From Undibacterium pigrum (lineage in GTDB: Bacteria; Pseudomonadota; Gammaproteobacteria; Burkholderiales; Burkholderiaceae_D), in NCBI RefSeq assembly GCF_003201815.1, contig NZ_QJKB01000002.1, positions 124,001 to 188,000 on the forward strand: a stretch of 64,000 nt of DNA, in the 5' to 3' direction. Numbering within the stretch: the first letter of the stretch is position 1; every line of letters starts with the position of its first letter. Below are positions 8,174 through 13,458 of this stretch, piece after piece. Under the pieces are notes generated by a model. That model saw only the letters and a program-made list of their open reading frames with translations, was not told where the DNA came from and made no database searches. A program made the translations under genes and the position numbers.

Positions 8174-9388
8174 ATGTCCAGCAAAGCCCTGATAGACAGC
8201 GCCGTTTTCAATTCCACCACGTCTGGCCGCAAGGGTCTGGCAGACAAATTGTTTGCCCACTGGTTCAGTCGCCTTGTGTATGCCCAGATCTGGGAAGATC
8301 CACAAGCTGACCTGGATGCTTTGCAACTCAAACCAGGCGCAAATATCCTGACCATTTCTTCCGGTGGCTGCAATGCCCTCGCTTATCTGTCTGCTGAGCC
8401 AGCTGCTGTCCATGCCGTGGATTTGAATGCTGCCCACCTCGCCATGCTCAATATCAAGCAAACCGCTATCAAACATTTGCCTGATTACGATGCGGTACTG
8501 GCTTTTCTGGGCAATGCCGACAAGCCTGATAATCTGAAACGCTATAAACGTCATATACGCATGCAGTTATCAGACGATGCCAGCAACTTCTGGGAAAGTC
8601 GCTCTTTGTCTGGCAAGCCGCGTTACCATTATTTTACCAACCAGGCTTATCAACATGGCTTGCTAGGTAACTTCATCAGCTTTGCGCATTTCTTTGTCCG
8701 CATGATGGGTGGAGACATGAGCAAACTCCTGCAGGCAAAAAATCTGCAGGAACAGGCGCAATTATTTGAGCAATATGTCGCCCCAGTCTTTGAAACTCGT
8801 TTGTTCCGCCTCATTGCCAGCCAGCCGCTGGCCCTGTATAGCCTGGGCATACCACCCTCACAATTCGCAGAATTGAAACACGAAGCCAAAGATGGCTTGC
8901 ATCTCTTGTTCAAGGAGAGAATGCGTCACCTGGCCTGTGATTTTCCGCTGGAAGAAAACTGTTATGCGCAACAGGCATTTGGCCGTCGCTATGACACCAA
9001 AAAACAGGCTGCCTTGCCCATGTATTTGCAGCAAGAACATTTTCACACCCTGCGCCGCAATATAGACAGGTTGCATCCCCACCATCAAACCCTGACTGAT
9101 TTTTTGCAGGGACAACCACGGGCTTCGATGGATGCCTATCTCTTCCTCGATGCCCAGGACTGGATGGACCAACAGCAATTGACCAAACTCTGGCAAGAAG
9201 TGAACCGCACCGCAGCGCCAGGGGCCAAGGTGGTTTTCCGTACAGGTGGCAGCAGCTCACCGCTGGAAGCCAAACTGGCACCAGAGATACTGGCGACCTG
9301 GCATACCGATACTGCCCATAACCGCAGCCTGTATGCCACTGACCGCTCAGCCATCTATGGCGGCATGCACCTGTACACCAAGATGTAA
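8174..9388 (+). CDS. BtaA-like (DUF3419) 3-amino-3-carboxypropyl transferase
   Basis: 404 residues, a good match to the BtaA/DUF3419 family. BtaA moves the aminocarboxypropyl group of S-adenosylmethionine onto diacylglycerol to make the homoserine ether lipid, the first step to betaine lipids. Visible family features are VYAQIWEDPQADLDAL (about residue 34), the SAM-site segment TISSGGCNALAYL (about 60) and HAVDLN (about 80). AGCGGAGA precedes the ATG. The next gene, 8 bases downstream, is not the N-methyltransferase BtaB but a GNAT-like protein. The exact substrate is therefore inferred. Confidence 0.8.
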   Translation: MSSKALIDSAVFNSTTSGRKGLADKLFAHWFSRLVYAQIWEDPQADLDALQLKPGANILTISSGGCNALAYLSAEPAAVHAVDLNAAHLAMLNIKQTAIKHLPDYDAVLAFLGNADKPDNLKRYKRHIRMQLSDDASNFWESRSLSGKPRYHYFTNQAYQHGLLGNFISFAHFFVRMMGGDMSKLLQAKNLQEQAQLFEQYVAPVFETRLFRLIASQPLALYSLGIPPSQFAELKHEAKDGLHLLFKERMRHLACDFPLEENCYAQQAFGRRYDTKKQAALPMYLQQEHFHTLRRNIDRLHPHHQTLTDFLQGQPRASMDAYLFLDAQDWMDQQQLTKLWQEVNRTAAPGAKVVFRTGGSSSPLEAKLAPEILATWHTDTAHNRSLYATDRSAIYGGMHLYTKM

Positions 9389-9396
9389 GTACCAAA

Positions 9397-10524
9397 TTGC
9401 ATACTTCTTTACCGCCTCGTGTGGTGGCAGACGCCCTGTGGCTGTTGACTGCGCGTTCGCGTGGTGGCCAGCACTGGCTTAACAATGCCACTTGCACTGT
9501 GAATGCCATAGAAATCGCCGGGCAAAGCCAGCCAGTGAGCCTATTGGAGCATCAAAGCAAATGGCAGGAAAGCTATGTTGCCAGCCCGCGTTCTACCTGG
9601 TTGCGCTATCCACGCCAGGAAATACTGCGTCAAGTAAGTCCTGCATGGGCGCAAGCCATCAAGCTAGGCAGTTGCGCCATACTCGGCCCACTTTCGGCCC
9701 TGCTCAAAGCCAGCAAACTGGACCAGGCTGCCATCGTCGCCAACCATCTGGTATCGACCAATCTTTATACTGACTGGTCTGCAAATGAGATCAGCACTGC
9801 CACCGATAAACTGCAGAGCACTTATCCACAGCATCCCTTAATGATGCGCAATATTTGTCCACAGGTGAACCCTGAACTGACAGAAAGCCTGCTCAGCACA
9901 GGCTGGCAATTATTTCCCAGCCGCATGATTTATCTCTGCGATCCACAGCAAGCCAGCGCCTGGAAACACAATCACGTCAGGCAGGATGCCCGCCTGCTGG
10001 ACAATACAGAAGTCGAAGTACTGACCCACGAAGCATTGCAAATGCAGGATATTGCGGTATTACAAGAACTCTACCGCCAGTTGTTTATCGATAAACACTC
10101 ATATCTCAATCCCGATTTCAGTGCCGCTTTCTTTGAACTTTGCCTGGAAACCCAGTTCCTGGAAATGCATGCCCTGCGCTGGCAAGGCCGTCTGGTAGGT
10201 GTCATAGGCATGTATACCCATCATGAAAATGGCTGGCTGACCACACCTCTGATAGGTTATGACACCAGCCTGCCCAAAGAACTGGGTTTATACAGACGTT
10301 TGATGGCTTTATTACTCAAGACAGCCAGAGAAAAGAAGCTGAAACTGCATTACAGCTCAGGTGCCAGCCAGTTCAAACGCGCCCGCGGTGGTACTCCTCA
10401 CCTGGAATATACCGCTATCTATAATCGTCACTTATCCACAACTGCAGTACAAAGCGCCAGGATATTTGGCCGTTTACTGTCCACTTTTGCACCAGCCTTA
10501 TTGAAAAAAGCTGACGGCATTTAA
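9397..10524 (+). CDS. GNAT-like acyltransferase paired with the BtaA-like gene
   Basis: 375 residues. The C-terminal half (about 200-350) has a GNAT/FemAB-like pattern: DKHSYLNPDFSAAFFELCL, GRLVGVIGMYTHHENGW, LGLYRRLMALLLKTARE and a final YTAIYNRHL. The N-terminal half has no recognised domain. The TTG start at 9397 lies 8 bases after the previous stop and has no strong ribosome-binding site; GTG 9421 or 9424 are alternatives. Tight linkage suggests it acts on the product of the BtaA-like enzyme, for instance acylating its free amino group, but this is inference. Perfect DnaA boxes are at 9822-9830 and 10432-10440. Confidence 0.65.
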   Translation: MHTSLPPRVVADALWLLTARSRGGQHWLNNATCTVNAIEIAGQSQPVSLLEHQSKWQESYVASPRSTWLRYPRQEILRQVSPAWAQAIKLGSCAILGPLSALLKASKLDQAAIVANHLVSTNLYTDWSANEISTATDKLQSTYPQHPLMMRNICPQVNPELTESLLSTGWQLFPSRMIYLCDPQQASAWKHNHVRQDARLLDNTEVEVLTHEALQMQDIAVLQELYRQLFIDKHSYLNPDFSAAFFELCLETQFLEMHALRWQGRLVGVIGMYTHHENGWLTTPLIGYDTSLPKELGLYRRLMALLLKTAREKKLKLHYSSGASQFKRARGGTPHLEYTAIYNRHLSTTAVQSARIFGRLLSTFAPALLKKADGI

Positions 10525-10707
10525 ACTGGCAGTATGTAAATTCTCATAGCACAATAACCATACAATTCTCTGTGGATAAGCCTATGCATATCCACAGGAT
10601 GAACTGTGCAAAACCATGCAAAGCTGTGGAAGAAGATTTTTTATCCCAAAACCGTCCTTTTTTCATACAGGACTTATCAGCACATCTATACATGAACTAA
10701 GTATTTG

Positions 10708-10741
10708 TTTTTGTGGATAAATTAAGACTTATCCACAAAAA
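10708..10741. repeat. Perfect inverted pair of DnaA boxes
   Basis: TTTTTGTGGATAA (10708-10720) and TTATCCACAAAAA (10729-10741) form a 13-bp perfect inverted repeat around an 8-base spacer. Two DnaA molecules would bind head to head, immediately before the first trio module. Confidence 0.9.
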
Positions 10742-10800
10742 ATCGCGACGTTAACTACTATTACTATGTATATATAAACTAATTATTTAATTAAACCCTT
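10729..10800 (+). other. Origin unwinding-like module 1
   Basis: DnaA box TTATCCACA (10729-10737), GC-rich TCGCGACG, GTTAAC (10750-10755), four triplets TAC TAT TAC TAT (10756-10767), then the AT-rich stretch from 10770. The box-to-trio gap is 18 bases. It reads in the same direction as module 2. Confidence 0.65.
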
Positions 10801-10921
10801 TTCGGAAAATGCTGGAAAATTTCCTGAAAGACCTGGTTTTGATCGAAATAAAAAAATTTTGAAAAATATCCAAACTTCAAAAAAAGAAGCACGTGTTACA
10901 AACGAACTTTCCCAAAAAAAA

Positions 10922-11110
10922 TCCATCCATCAAAACAGACGCTCGGTTTTTTTATTGCAAGCGCCGTTGAATTTTTTAAGATCACTCAGCTTAAAAAATC
11001 TCTTGCAAACTTTGTCTTAAAAAAATGAAGCTCATCCATCAACACAAGAATGCTTTTTTTTGATGCAAGCCATTTTGAATTTTTAAAGATGGCCTCAGGT
11101 TAAAAAGCAG
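10922..11110 (+). repeat. Imperfect 80-bp tandem repeat between the two modules
   Basis: 10922-11001 and 11031-11110 align along their length. Both contain CATCCATCAA, a T-run, TGCAAGC, TTGAATTTTT, AAGAT and a final TTAAAAA. It is non-coding and of unknown role; it may be the AT-rich core between the two DnaA box clusters. Confidence 0.7.
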
Positions 11111-11397
11111 CAGACTCTGGTTTGCCAGCCTTAAAAGCCAATTCTTTCCGTCTTTTCCTAAAAATTTTTATCTGCAAAGCTGAAAACAGGTGTTTTCCTG
11201 GGATTTTTCAGTGAAAAACAACATTTTTTAAAAAATCTTTGTGGATAAGTCTGCTGATATCCACTGTATCTATTGTGCGTAACTCAAAAATTACTCACGA
11301 CAGCGTTTACTGTTCAGATTTTGTCCTGTGGATATACAGACTTTTATCACCGCCTTATCATTGGCCTAAATGCTTGATCCTGTGGATGTTTACTGAC

Positions 11398-11455
11398 TTA
11401 TCCACAGCGACATGCCTGCGTTAACAACTACTACTATTTATATATAAACTTATTC
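11398..11455 (+). other. Origin unwinding-like module 2
   Basis: DnaA box TTATCCACA (11398-11406), GC-rich spacer (11407-11420), GTTAAC (11420-11425), triplets TAC TAC TAT (11429-11437), then TATATATAAAC and further AT-rich sequence. The box-to-trio gap is 22 bases. It shares the GTTAAC-trio-TATATATAAAC segment with module 1. Confidence 0.65.
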
Positions 11456-11552
11456 AATCTAAAGGTATCCACAGCTCAAAAAATGCAAAAAAACAAAAGC
11501 AAAAAACTGTCGTAGAATCCGTAACTCGTACAAAACCTGAGAGGAAATACCG

Positions 11553-12062
11553 ATGAAGCTATGGTCAACTTTGCTGTTTGCGACCTTGCTGGCATGTGGT
11601 TCTGCACATGCAGAAAAACCTACGGCAGCCTCGGTTAAAGAATTGCTGGTGTTGACGAATAGTCAGCAAATGCTGAAAAGTACAGAAGTCCAAATGGAAC
11701 GCGTCATGAAAGACATGATGAAAACAGCCATGAAGGACCAGCCTGTTAATGCAGAGCAGCAAAAAATCATGGATAAATTCCGGGATAAAGTCATGGATAT
11801 CCACAGATCAGAAGTTACCTGGGAAAAACTCGAGCCTATTCTCGTTGAGGTTTATAGCAATTCCCTGAGCCAGGAAGACGTTGATGGCATCAGCGCTTTC
11901 TACAGATCTCCGGCTGGCAGGTCTTTTGTCAGCAAAATGCCTGTTGTCATGCAAGAAAGTATGAATGCCATGCAAAAAGTAATGACACCCATGATGGAAA
12001 AAATGTTTGAAGCAGCAAAAAAAATGGGTGAAGAACTACGCGAACTGGCGCAAAAAAAATAA
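11553..12062 (+). CDS. DUF2059 periplasmic protein
   Basis: 169 residues: a signal peptide (1-20, GSAHAE), then a helical, Met-rich DUF2059 domain with the signature LVEVYSNSLSQEDVDGISAFYRSPAGRSFVSKMP (about residues 90-125). The molecular function of the family is unknown. GAGGAAAT precedes the ATG. It is the first gene to the right of the candidate origin. Confidence 0.88.
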   Translation: MKLWSTLLFATLLACGSAHAEKPTAASVKELLVLTNSQQMLKSTEVQMERVMKDMMKTAMKDQPVNAEQQKIMDKFRDKVMDIHRSEVTWEKLEPILVEVYSNSLSQEDVDGISAFYRSPAGRSFVSKMPVVMQESMNAMQKVMTPMMEKMFEAAKKMGEELRELAQKK

Positions 12063-12183
12063 TCTTGCAAAGCAAACGCGGCTTCAGATAGCGCCATCTG
12101 GCTCTCCCTATCAGCAAAATGAGCAAAATCAGCAACTATGGAAAAATTTTGACGAAATTGCCTTTGCAAGCAAATAAAGCATC

Positions 12184-13458
12184 ATGACCAAAGCCAGGCA
12201 TTACATTTTTCTTGGCATGGGTACACTGGGAGATATATTCCCTTTCCTCAGCCTGGCAGTTGAAATGCAAAAGCGCGGACATGAAACCACCATGCTGCTG
12301 GCTCCGGTTCATGCCATTCATGCACAAAAAGCAGGTATTACCTACAAGATATTGGGGACCCAGGCTGACTATGATGCGGCCTTAAGCCATCCAGATATGT
12401 GGGATATACGCAAGGGCATGGGCGTCGTGCTTGAATCAAGTAAGTCAGTGCTTACTGAAATGCCAGGCTATATTGCTTCTTTACCTGTTGAACAGGATTA
12501 CATCCTGGTCGCCCATCCACTGGGTTTGCCTGCAGCAGATATTGTGCGTAGTTTCAGGACTGATATCCCCATCGTCGCTGCTTATCTCGCGCCCTCTAAT
12601 TTACGAACTGTGCATAACCCCCTGGTGATGGGGGATTTATTCATACCGCAATGGCTGCCAGTTTGGATGCGCAGATGGCTATGGACTTATGCAGACAAGA
12701 ATTTTATTGATCCAGTTGCCGTACCCATCATCAATCAAGCCAGGCAGGCCAGGAATTTATCGACTATCAGCAGCCTGGCAGCGCATATGTATGCCGTCCC
12801 AGATTTAAGTATCAGTTTTTTCCCTGACTGGTTTGCACCAGCCCAGCCAGACTGGCCAGCTCCTTTGGCCATGGGCGAATTCCAGCTCTATGACAGCAGC
12901 ACAATTACAGACTTATCCACAGAGCTGGAAGAATTTCTTGCTGCGGGCCCTGCACCAGTGATTTTTACGCCAGGATCAGGAAATATTCAGGCCGGTCATT
13001 ATTTTCTATGCGCGCAACAGGCCGTGCAAAAACTGGGTTTGCGGGCGATATTCCTTACCAGCCATCGTGAACAGATCGCTGCAGCTTTACCTGCCAACAT
13101 ACTCTGGCAAAGTTATTTACCCCTGCGCAGTATTTTGCCGCGCGCATCTGTACTTGTTCACCACGGTGGCATAGGTACGACAGCAGAAGCATTGAGGGCA
13201 GGCACACCACAACTGATAACGCCGCTGGCATTTGACCAGTTTGATAATGCTGCACGCATTAAAAAATTGGGTACAGGTGATTTCATACGCATGTCGCGCC
13301 TGACTGGCGGCAGACTCACGCGCAGTCTGCAACAACTGCTGGCTTCAGAAGTTATAAAAAACAACTGCACGCAAGTTGCCGGGAAATTCAAGAAAACTGG
13401 CTATGCAGATTCTTTATGTGATGCTATCGAAGCACTGCAGTCAAAACAAAAAGCCTGA
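12184..13458 (+). CDS. Family 1 glycosyltransferase (UGT/MGT-like)
   Basis: 424 residues with the GT-B fold. The N-terminal acceptor domain starts FLGMGTLGDIFPFLSLA. The C-terminal sugar-nucleotide domain holds LVHHGGIGTTAEALRAGTPQ followed by PLAFDQFDNA (about residues 320-355), the hallmark of GT1 enzymes that glycosylate lipids, sterols or macrolides. The acceptor is unknown; the BtaA-like pair on the other side of the origin candidate raises the possibility of a lipid substrate, without direct evidence. A DnaA box lies at 12913-12921. Confidence 0.88.
   Translation: MTKARHYIFLGMGTLGDIFPFLSLAVEMQKRGHETTMLLAPVHAIHAQKAGITYKILGTQADYDAALSHPDMWDIRKGMGVVLESSKSVLTEMPGYIASLPVEQDYILVAHPLGLPAADIVRSFRTDIPIVAAYLAPSNLRTVHNPLVMGDLFIPQWLPVWMRRWLWTYADKNFIDPVAVPIINQARQARNLSTISSLAAHMYAVPDLSISFFPDWFAPAQPDWPAPLAMGEFQLYDSSTITDLSTELEEFLAAGPAPVIFTPGSGNIQAGHYFLCAQQAVQKLGLRAIFLTSHREQIAAALPANILWQSYLPLRSILPRASVLVHHGGIGTTAEALRAGTPQLITPLAFDQFDNAARIKKLGTGDFIRMSRLTGGRLTRSLQQLLASEVIKNNCTQVAGKFKKTGYADSLCDAIEALQSKQKA

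Follow-up and report, generated by a model that had tools for sequence, protein, structure and literature searches.

Descriptions of bacterial chromosomes usually assign them a single oriC with a single DUE. In the oriC of E. coli, whose unwinding region consists of 13-mers, inverted high-affinity boxes (R1 and R4, 180 bp apart) bound the DnaA array, an IHF site lies 28 nt inside R1, and the DUE is placed outside R1; this origin is linked to mnmG and situated away from dnaA. A second design is that of the BUS, or DnaA-trio, origins (Pelliciari 2021, PMC8287927), in which a DnaA box, a GC-rich spacer, 3'-GAT-5' triplets and an AT tract follow one another; in the available part of that report, the BUS search allows at most 16 bp between box and trio, with a peak at 10-13 bp. 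Bipartite origins, such as those of B. subtilis, H. pylori and C. difficile, contain two DnaA-box clusters per origin region, and the parts usually flank dnaA, one of them holding the DUE, according to the accessible portions of PMC7561715, PMC5043019 and PMC4285127.

The window (the whole stretch of 64,000 nucleotides of Undibacterium pigrum DNA analyzed here) contains a gap at 10525-11552, flanked by a GNAT ORF (stop at 10524) and a DUF2059 gene (ATG at 11553). The origin region within it (10561-11480) has an AT content of 66% and contains eight DnaA boxes, five of them perfect and three with one mismatch (Table 1). In 500 dinucleotide shuffles of the same region, the mean number of perfect boxes was 0.004 (maximum 1), and that of boxes with at most one mismatch was 0.25 (maximum 2), compared with the 8 observed. 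The 6.41-Mb genome has just two matches to the strict module, TTATCCACA-N6..20-GTTAAC, and both lie within this gap; the same pattern read backwards has zero occurrences in the genome. The earlier note had described an AT-rich, gene-free kilobase with five perfect and three near-perfect boxes as well as two co-oriented trio modules; coordinates, counts, composition and shuffles agree with the former, and the latter are both present as the sole two matches to the pattern genome-wide. Beyond that description, the gap contains two complete origin units in the same orientation, each ~215 bp long; in both, an inverted pair of perfect boxes is separated by exactly 158 bp, and the second unit has an IHF-like site. 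The order within each unit is the inverted box pair, a spacer, GTTAAC, TAC/TAT triplets and an unstable 40-bp tract. According to nearest-neighbor sums, the AT tracts of the two units are the two least stable 40-bp windows of 9001-13000, and both contain and extend past the triplet runs. When 800 kb of the contig were searched with a profile of the unit, the only full units recovered were the two of the window.

Table 1. Features of the two origin units (window positions; strand given as +, - or. for neither)
Feature	Position	Strand	Remarks
Origin unit A, predicted complete E. coli-type origin core	10571..10781	+	profile match 10562-10781, 164 bits
R4-like perfect DnaA box, end of unit A	10571..10579	-	158 bp from 10729
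One-mismatch DnaA box ATATCCACA, unit A	10588..10596	+	
Extra perfect inverted DnaA box, unit A	10712..10720	-	17 bp before R1-like box
R1-like perfect DnaA box, adjoins unwinding tract of unit A	10729..10737	+	
12-bp spacer of unit A with GC-rich end, then GTTAAC	10738..10755	+	GTTAAC in 28/29 genus A units
DnaA-trio-like run CTA-CTA-TTA-CTA, unit A	10755..10766	+	opposite strand 3'-GAT-GAT-AAT-GAT-5'
AT tract of unit A, least stable 40-bp window of 9001-13000	10755..10795	.	nearest-neighbor sums
Origin unit B, predicted complete E. coli-type origin core	11240..11455	+	profile match 11231-11455, 164 bits
R4-like perfect DnaA box, end of unit B	11240..11248	-	158 bp from 11398
One-mismatch DnaA box TGTGGATAT, within unit B	11327..11335	-	
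IHF consensus match ATCAANNNNTTR, unit B	11367..11378	-	28 nt inside R1-like box, as in E. coli
R1-like perfect DnaA box, adjoins unwinding tract of unit B	11398..11406	+	
13-bp spacer of unit B, then GTTAAC	11407..11425	+	GTTAAC in 27/29 genus B units
DnaA-trio-like run CTA-CTA-CTA, unit B	11428..11436	+	
AT tract of unit B, second least stable 40-bp window of 9001-13000	11422..11462	.	nearest-neighbor sums
One-mismatch DnaA box GTATCCACA, just beyond unit B	11465..11473	+	

The gap is proposed, with reasonable confidence, to be the Undibacterium oriC, composed of two complete tandem origin units that are both most likely able to open. The anatomy, uniqueness, conservation and old divergence of the units, along with the places of parS and dif, are observed; binding of DnaA and IHF, strand opening and the use of both units are predictions from the DNA sequence. 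In each unit, the inverted pair of perfect boxes would serve as the nucleation site for DnaA, and IHF would bend the DNA between the two boxes (through a consensus site in B and a degenerate one in A). Starting at the R1-like box, DnaA would then spread along the triplets and melt the AT tract next to them, which would receive the helicase. Each unit would build its own DnaA-IHF complex and be able to open its own tract, and a round of replication probably begins at either unit, the 670 bp between them being trivial to copy.

The identification as oriC rests on conservation and on chromosomal position. The strict module was found in 40 of 43 genomes of the genus, identified as Undibacterium by named relatives that share the neighborhood (per-genus counts were tallied by hand): 33 genomes contain two co-oriented modules, seven contain one and three none, and the 73 matches in total compare with 5 for the reversed pattern. 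parS sites, identified by a presumed consensus, are present in 37 of these 43 genomes, at one or two positions each, the other 6 being without a match. Wherever a contig carries both parS and the module (30 genomes), the two are 10-28 kb apart; in the remaining 7 parS-bearing genomes, parS is on a different contig from the module or the module is absent. In the window genome (G000), two parS sites are located just upstream of mnmG at 108.6 kb of C2, the contig of the window, 26 kb from the origin region. A dif-like site, likewise recognized by a presumed consensus with at most three mismatches, was detected in 7 of 8 genomes searched, G015 being the one with no match. Six chromosomes (G006, G014, G020, G021, G036 and G037) have module, dnaA and dif on one large contig; assuming circularity and measuring the shorter way round, the module-to-dif distance is 0.495, 0.494, 0.490, 0.497, 0.460 and 0.487 of the chromosome, respectively, and the dnaA-to-dif distance is 0.481, 0.430, 0.428, 0.434, 0.443 and 0.480. 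dif is therefore closer to antipodal from the module than from dnaA in 6/6 chromosomes; the window genome, whose dif is on another contig, was outside this comparison. Finally, the rpmH-dnaA gap contains a single perfect DnaA box, with dnaA and dnaN together 400 kb from the module. Because the module pair is conserved, parS is near, dif is antipodal and the rpmH-dnaA gap has just the one box, the origin region is very probably oriC, placed by these sequence features about 400 kb from dnaA and 26 kb from mnmG and parS.

It could instead be supposed that the region is a DnaA-titration or timing site (similar to datA or DARS) and that the true origin lies beside dnaA. The numerous DnaA boxes and the joint, distant location of dnaA and dnaN are compatible with such a site, and GC skew does not tell the two sites apart; on the other hand, a titration site would not account for two full modules of DUE and triplets, for parS within 10-28 kb in 30/30 genomes, for dif nearer the antipode of the module in 6/6 chromosomes, or for the presence of just a single perfect box between rpmH and dnaA. 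This reading is considered highly improbable, and the positions of parS and dif together with the box content led to the rejection of an origin at dnaA and of a site for titration only. The earlier note had left the choice between oriC and a second initiation or titration site, and conservation, parS, dif and box content favor oriC over a side titration site. Its check of conservation among relatives gave the outcome it had called for, both modules being co-oriented in 33/43 genus genomes. Its statement that neither dnaA nor gidA lies alongside is correct insofar as neither is adjacent and dnaA is ~400 kb off, but gidA (mnmG) is linked at 26 kb. The layout it had termed uncommon is not odd in its distance from dnaA, since E. 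coli oriC is also ~42 kb from dnaA; tandem complete units are uncommon, yet common among relatives.

GC skew, which the earlier note had named as a check, was too blunt to serve as the deciding test. The cumulative skew of C2 (800 of 872 kb) has a broad minimum that is lowest at 187 kb, compared with the module at 135 kb. For the 6.56-Mb chromosome of G020, a sample of 40 stretches of 20 kb gave a best fit at 6.34-6.48 Mb, compared with the module at 6.15 Mb, and the scores of the module (10,092) and of dnaA at the record start (9,872) are similar to each other, the best being 10,800. The skew thus narrows the origin to this chromosomal region, to within roughly 0.05-0.3 Mb, but module and dnaA are not separable by it. 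Of the two parts of the note's refuting condition, the conservation of the modules therefore counters one, and the skew leaves the other standing. In G036 (C1 and C2), seventeen DnaA-domain (PF00308) matches were recorded: dnaA and sixteen weak ones, mostly with repeated identical scores, which are probably transposon ATPases.

The two units are of considerable age. Within one genome, A and B are ~55% identical (29 genus loci), and across these loci the mean identity is 0.61 for A-A, 0.60 for B-B and 0.53 for A-B comparisons. For 57 of 58 units, the closest counterpart in another genome is one of the same position; FastTree supports the A clade at 0.973. On these sequence comparisons, the two units split before the genus did and have been conserved by position. 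In four relatives compared, unit A (10571-10780) is 88-93% identical and unit B (11240-11449) is 82-94% identical, both with zero gap columns in 4/4, whereas the inter-unit spacer is 60-70% identical with 89-147 gap columns. A recent duplication or assembly artifact was discarded on the ~55% identity of A and B and on their grouping by position. An integrated plasmid or phage origin remnant, or an assembly duplication, would agree with a site away from dnaA, but several named Undibacterium loci have the same DUF3419, GNAT or DUF2059 neighbors, units are present in most of the 80 named loci listed (see below), and the low identity between A and B does not fit an assembly artifact; this explanation is judged next to impossible.

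A more serious alternative is a bipartite-like oriC, in which one unit would be opened and the other would serve as a regulatory or titrating sub-origin contacting it via DnaA, as in the oriC1-oriC2 arrangement of H. pylori and C. difficile. The known bipartite origins do consist of two box clusters with the DUE in one part (in the accessible text of PMC7561715, PMC4285127 and PMC5043019), and A and B differ in two respects: an inverted box, perfect or with a single mismatch, is present at -17 in 15/29 genus A units compared with 1/29 B units, and at least three strict trios are found in 27/29 compared with 20/29. The -17 box is a possible functional difference between A and B. Neither unit, however, has lost its box, GTTAAC, triplets or AT tract. 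Across the loci covered, 247 of 253 distinct units contain three or more relaxed YYA triplets and 244 contain GTTWAC (a set of 254 distinct natural units collected, less one low-scoring match), while strict trios are found in 191/254 and GTTAAC in 185/254. For the comparison of A with B, counting identical units once left, among the 80 named loci listed, 41 co-oriented ones with two units and 15 with three. Moreover, the two least stable tracts amount to two DUEs, of which pure titration has no evident need. A bipartite-like arrangement is accordingly regarded as possible but rather unlikely. An oriC of two units most likely able to open remains the preferred reading, because the opening signals have been kept in both and the units form two separate ancient lineages. 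Points that weigh against it are the weak GC skew, the missing exact IHF site of unit A and of 120/182 units, strict trios in just 20/29 genus B units, box-to-trio distances above the 16-bp limit, the missing profile match to E. coli oriC and the 114/392 family genomes in which a perfect inverted pair was not found.

The tandem extends beyond the window. Among 30 genus loci (the window plus 29 loci picked for holding a module), the profile search revealed two full units in 28, three in one (L090) and one in one, which sits at a contig edge. In a wider set, 80 named loci among the matches listed (stretches of up to 8 kb) contain one unit in 13 cases, two in 52 and three in 15, so that 67/80 have two or three; each count should be read as a minimum for its 8-kb stretch, because several of the 13 single-unit loci sit near a stretch end. 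The named loci were drawn from 119 stretches that had been selected with the module pattern, and some belong to the same species as the 43 genus genomes. The raw two/three/one counts, 51/16/13, became 52/15/13 once an antisense echo of 18 bits in L098 and L178 had been set aside. The 188 exact-pattern units on which the profile had been trained come from these loci and therefore score high by construction; units without GTTAAC, such as units 2 and 3 of Janthinobacterium, were outside the training. Among the matches listed, 65/67 multi-unit named loci are unidirectional. Two units in opposite directions were observed in L164 (189-3185, Noviherbaspirillum aerium) and in L180 (3847-4681, a Herminiimonas MAG). 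Of the 80 named loci listed, 75 carry names that are taken to belong to Oxalobacteraceae (presumed membership save for Undibacterium, Janthinobacterium and Keguizhuia); the remainder comprises four MAGs with broader labels and one Paucimonas (Burkholderiaceae per NCBI). The three-unit loci include Janthinobacterium, and one Undibacterium locus (L297 in G015, 11454-13283) has three complete units spaced by 830 and 780 bp. In five of the 80 named loci listed (L131, L134, L136, L154 and L163), a unit lies ~1-4.5 kb from mnmG, which suggests an older mnmG-linked position.

In the family of the window, the exact inverted-pair pattern matched 278/392 genomes and 26/44 genera; no perfect inverted box pair was found in 114/392, including nearly all genomes of two small-genome genera. 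In the 43 genus genomes, this pattern occurs twice in 29, three times in one, once in 11 and not in 2, and 34 of the 40 genomes of another genus (g6) have three. Outside the family, double units were found in 0/155 genomes (an order sample of 160, of which 5 belong to the family), with a single R-F pair in 6/155. A class search with gaps of 150-180 matched 7/184 genomes, none of them twice; it is uninformative on the 158-bp spacing because the 149-bp gap of the window falls outside this range (G000 scored 0). Divergent units are missed in both the order and the class searches because these require perfect boxes.

An inverted box at -156 to -160 with at most one mismatch is present in 134/135 distinct units from genus and family loci, and TTATCC-like positions, at most candidates for R2 and ordered low-affinity sites, are conserved in the unit consensus. 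A presumed IHF consensus, one letter off the E. coli site itself, matches the reverse strand in 62/182 units, every one at offset -31, compared with an expectation of 0.9 after shuffling of the last 60 bp; the other strand gave 5 scattered matches in the same 182 units. The exact IHF site was absent from 120/182 units, including unit A of the window, in which it is degenerate.

The surroundings of the units are also rich in initiator boxes. The whole genome contains 85 perfect DnaA boxes (TTATCCACA), with 7 located within 1 kb of the first module, 32 at 1-60 kb and 46 in the remaining 6.3 Mb, and the density is ~37-fold higher within 60 kb of oriC. In 800 kb of C2, 32 boxes fall in the 1-60 kb zone and 8 outside, compared with means of 0.58 in the zone (maximum 7) and 3.4 outside for ~200 permuted words of the same composition. 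Three of the 11 single-mismatch words tried lean the same way (TTATGCACA, 6 in and 4 out; TTATACACA, 3 in and 1 out; TTATTCACA, 5 in and 6 out), and the others have little or no lean to the origin zone. The field spans 2203-63459 of the window, as part of 82-192 kb of C2 in G000, and 27/32 zone boxes lie inside stop-free frames of at least 180 codons. In G020, 13 of the 15 alignable boxes of C2:100-160 kb are intact (four others were not alignable), including 9/10 outside oriC; the corresponding figures are 30/72 for permuted words (Fisher p 0.005) and 39% for 9-mers overall. Box clusters near the origin are also present in G015 and Janthinobacterium LM6, with few in G006, among the matches listed. 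These boxes constitute a candidate DnaA-titration field. DnaA boxes likewise accumulate towards oriC in E. coli, but more mildly, according to the available text of Olivi 2025 (PMC12371093). Elsewhere, five perfect same-strand boxes 149-456 bp apart occur far from oriC in Janthinobacterium sp. LM6 (G043:C1:1791261-1792192, the genome of L176), and a similar run of boxes is present at G015:C1:4133466-4134628.

A broader proposal is that many Oxalobacteraceae have long kept two or three complete, independently opening origins ~270 to 3,570 bp apart, that initiation would be a contest or co-operation of neighboring orisomes, and that in this lineage a surrounding dense field of strict DnaA boxes would titrate the initiator; taken as a whole, this proposal, drawn from comparative data, is put forward tentatively, its chances falling slightly short of even. 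Among the open-literature titles and opening lines of abstracts listed, none concerned an Oxalobacteraceae origin or a wild-type tandem of complete units; the tandem layout may be recorded in subscription papers or DoriC, which lay outside that scope. Two or three anciently diverged complete units situated together make competition versus co-operation of orisomes directly testable, and they bear on why cells keep a spare origin and on which E. coli-type parts are indispensable. The strong clustering of strict boxes within 60 kb of oriC also offers the DnaA titration model an extreme example found in nature.

In terms of sequence criteria, the origin region qualifies as a predicted oriC with E. 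coli-type geometry. Like E. coli oriC, the units have inverted high-affinity boxes that would bound a DnaA array (158 bp apart here), an IHF site at the same offset inside the R1-like box in unit B and in 62/182 units, an unwinding tract outside that box, linkage to mnmG and a location away from dnaA. The differences are the presence of two units rather than one, the possession of GTTAAC and triplets in place of 13-mers, and the scarcity of GATC, with just 3 sites in 920 bp instead of the richness in Dam sites associated with SeqA; the unit profile gave no match to E. coli oriC at E 0.001. The sequence of the E. coli IHF site used for this comparison is that given in the available text of PMC4285127.

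The likeness to BUS origins lies in the common order of DnaA box, GC-rich spacer, triplets and AT tract, and the C. difficile trio quoted in the accessible portion of PMC7561715 has the same reading direction as the triplets of the units. Past the DnaA box, unit A has four consecutive trios and unit B three, at or above the three expected of a BUS. The units, which would resemble BUS in their predicted working, are not classed as strict BUS members because the distance from the box to the first CTA, 17 bp in A and 21 bp in B, exceeds the 16-bp limit; they also differ in that two complete modules are contained within one gap. The window shares with bipartite origins the two DnaA-box clusters per origin region; in contrast to two sub-origins with one DUE, its sequence contains two DUE tracts and two trio runs, and both parts are complete with a gene-free stretch between them.
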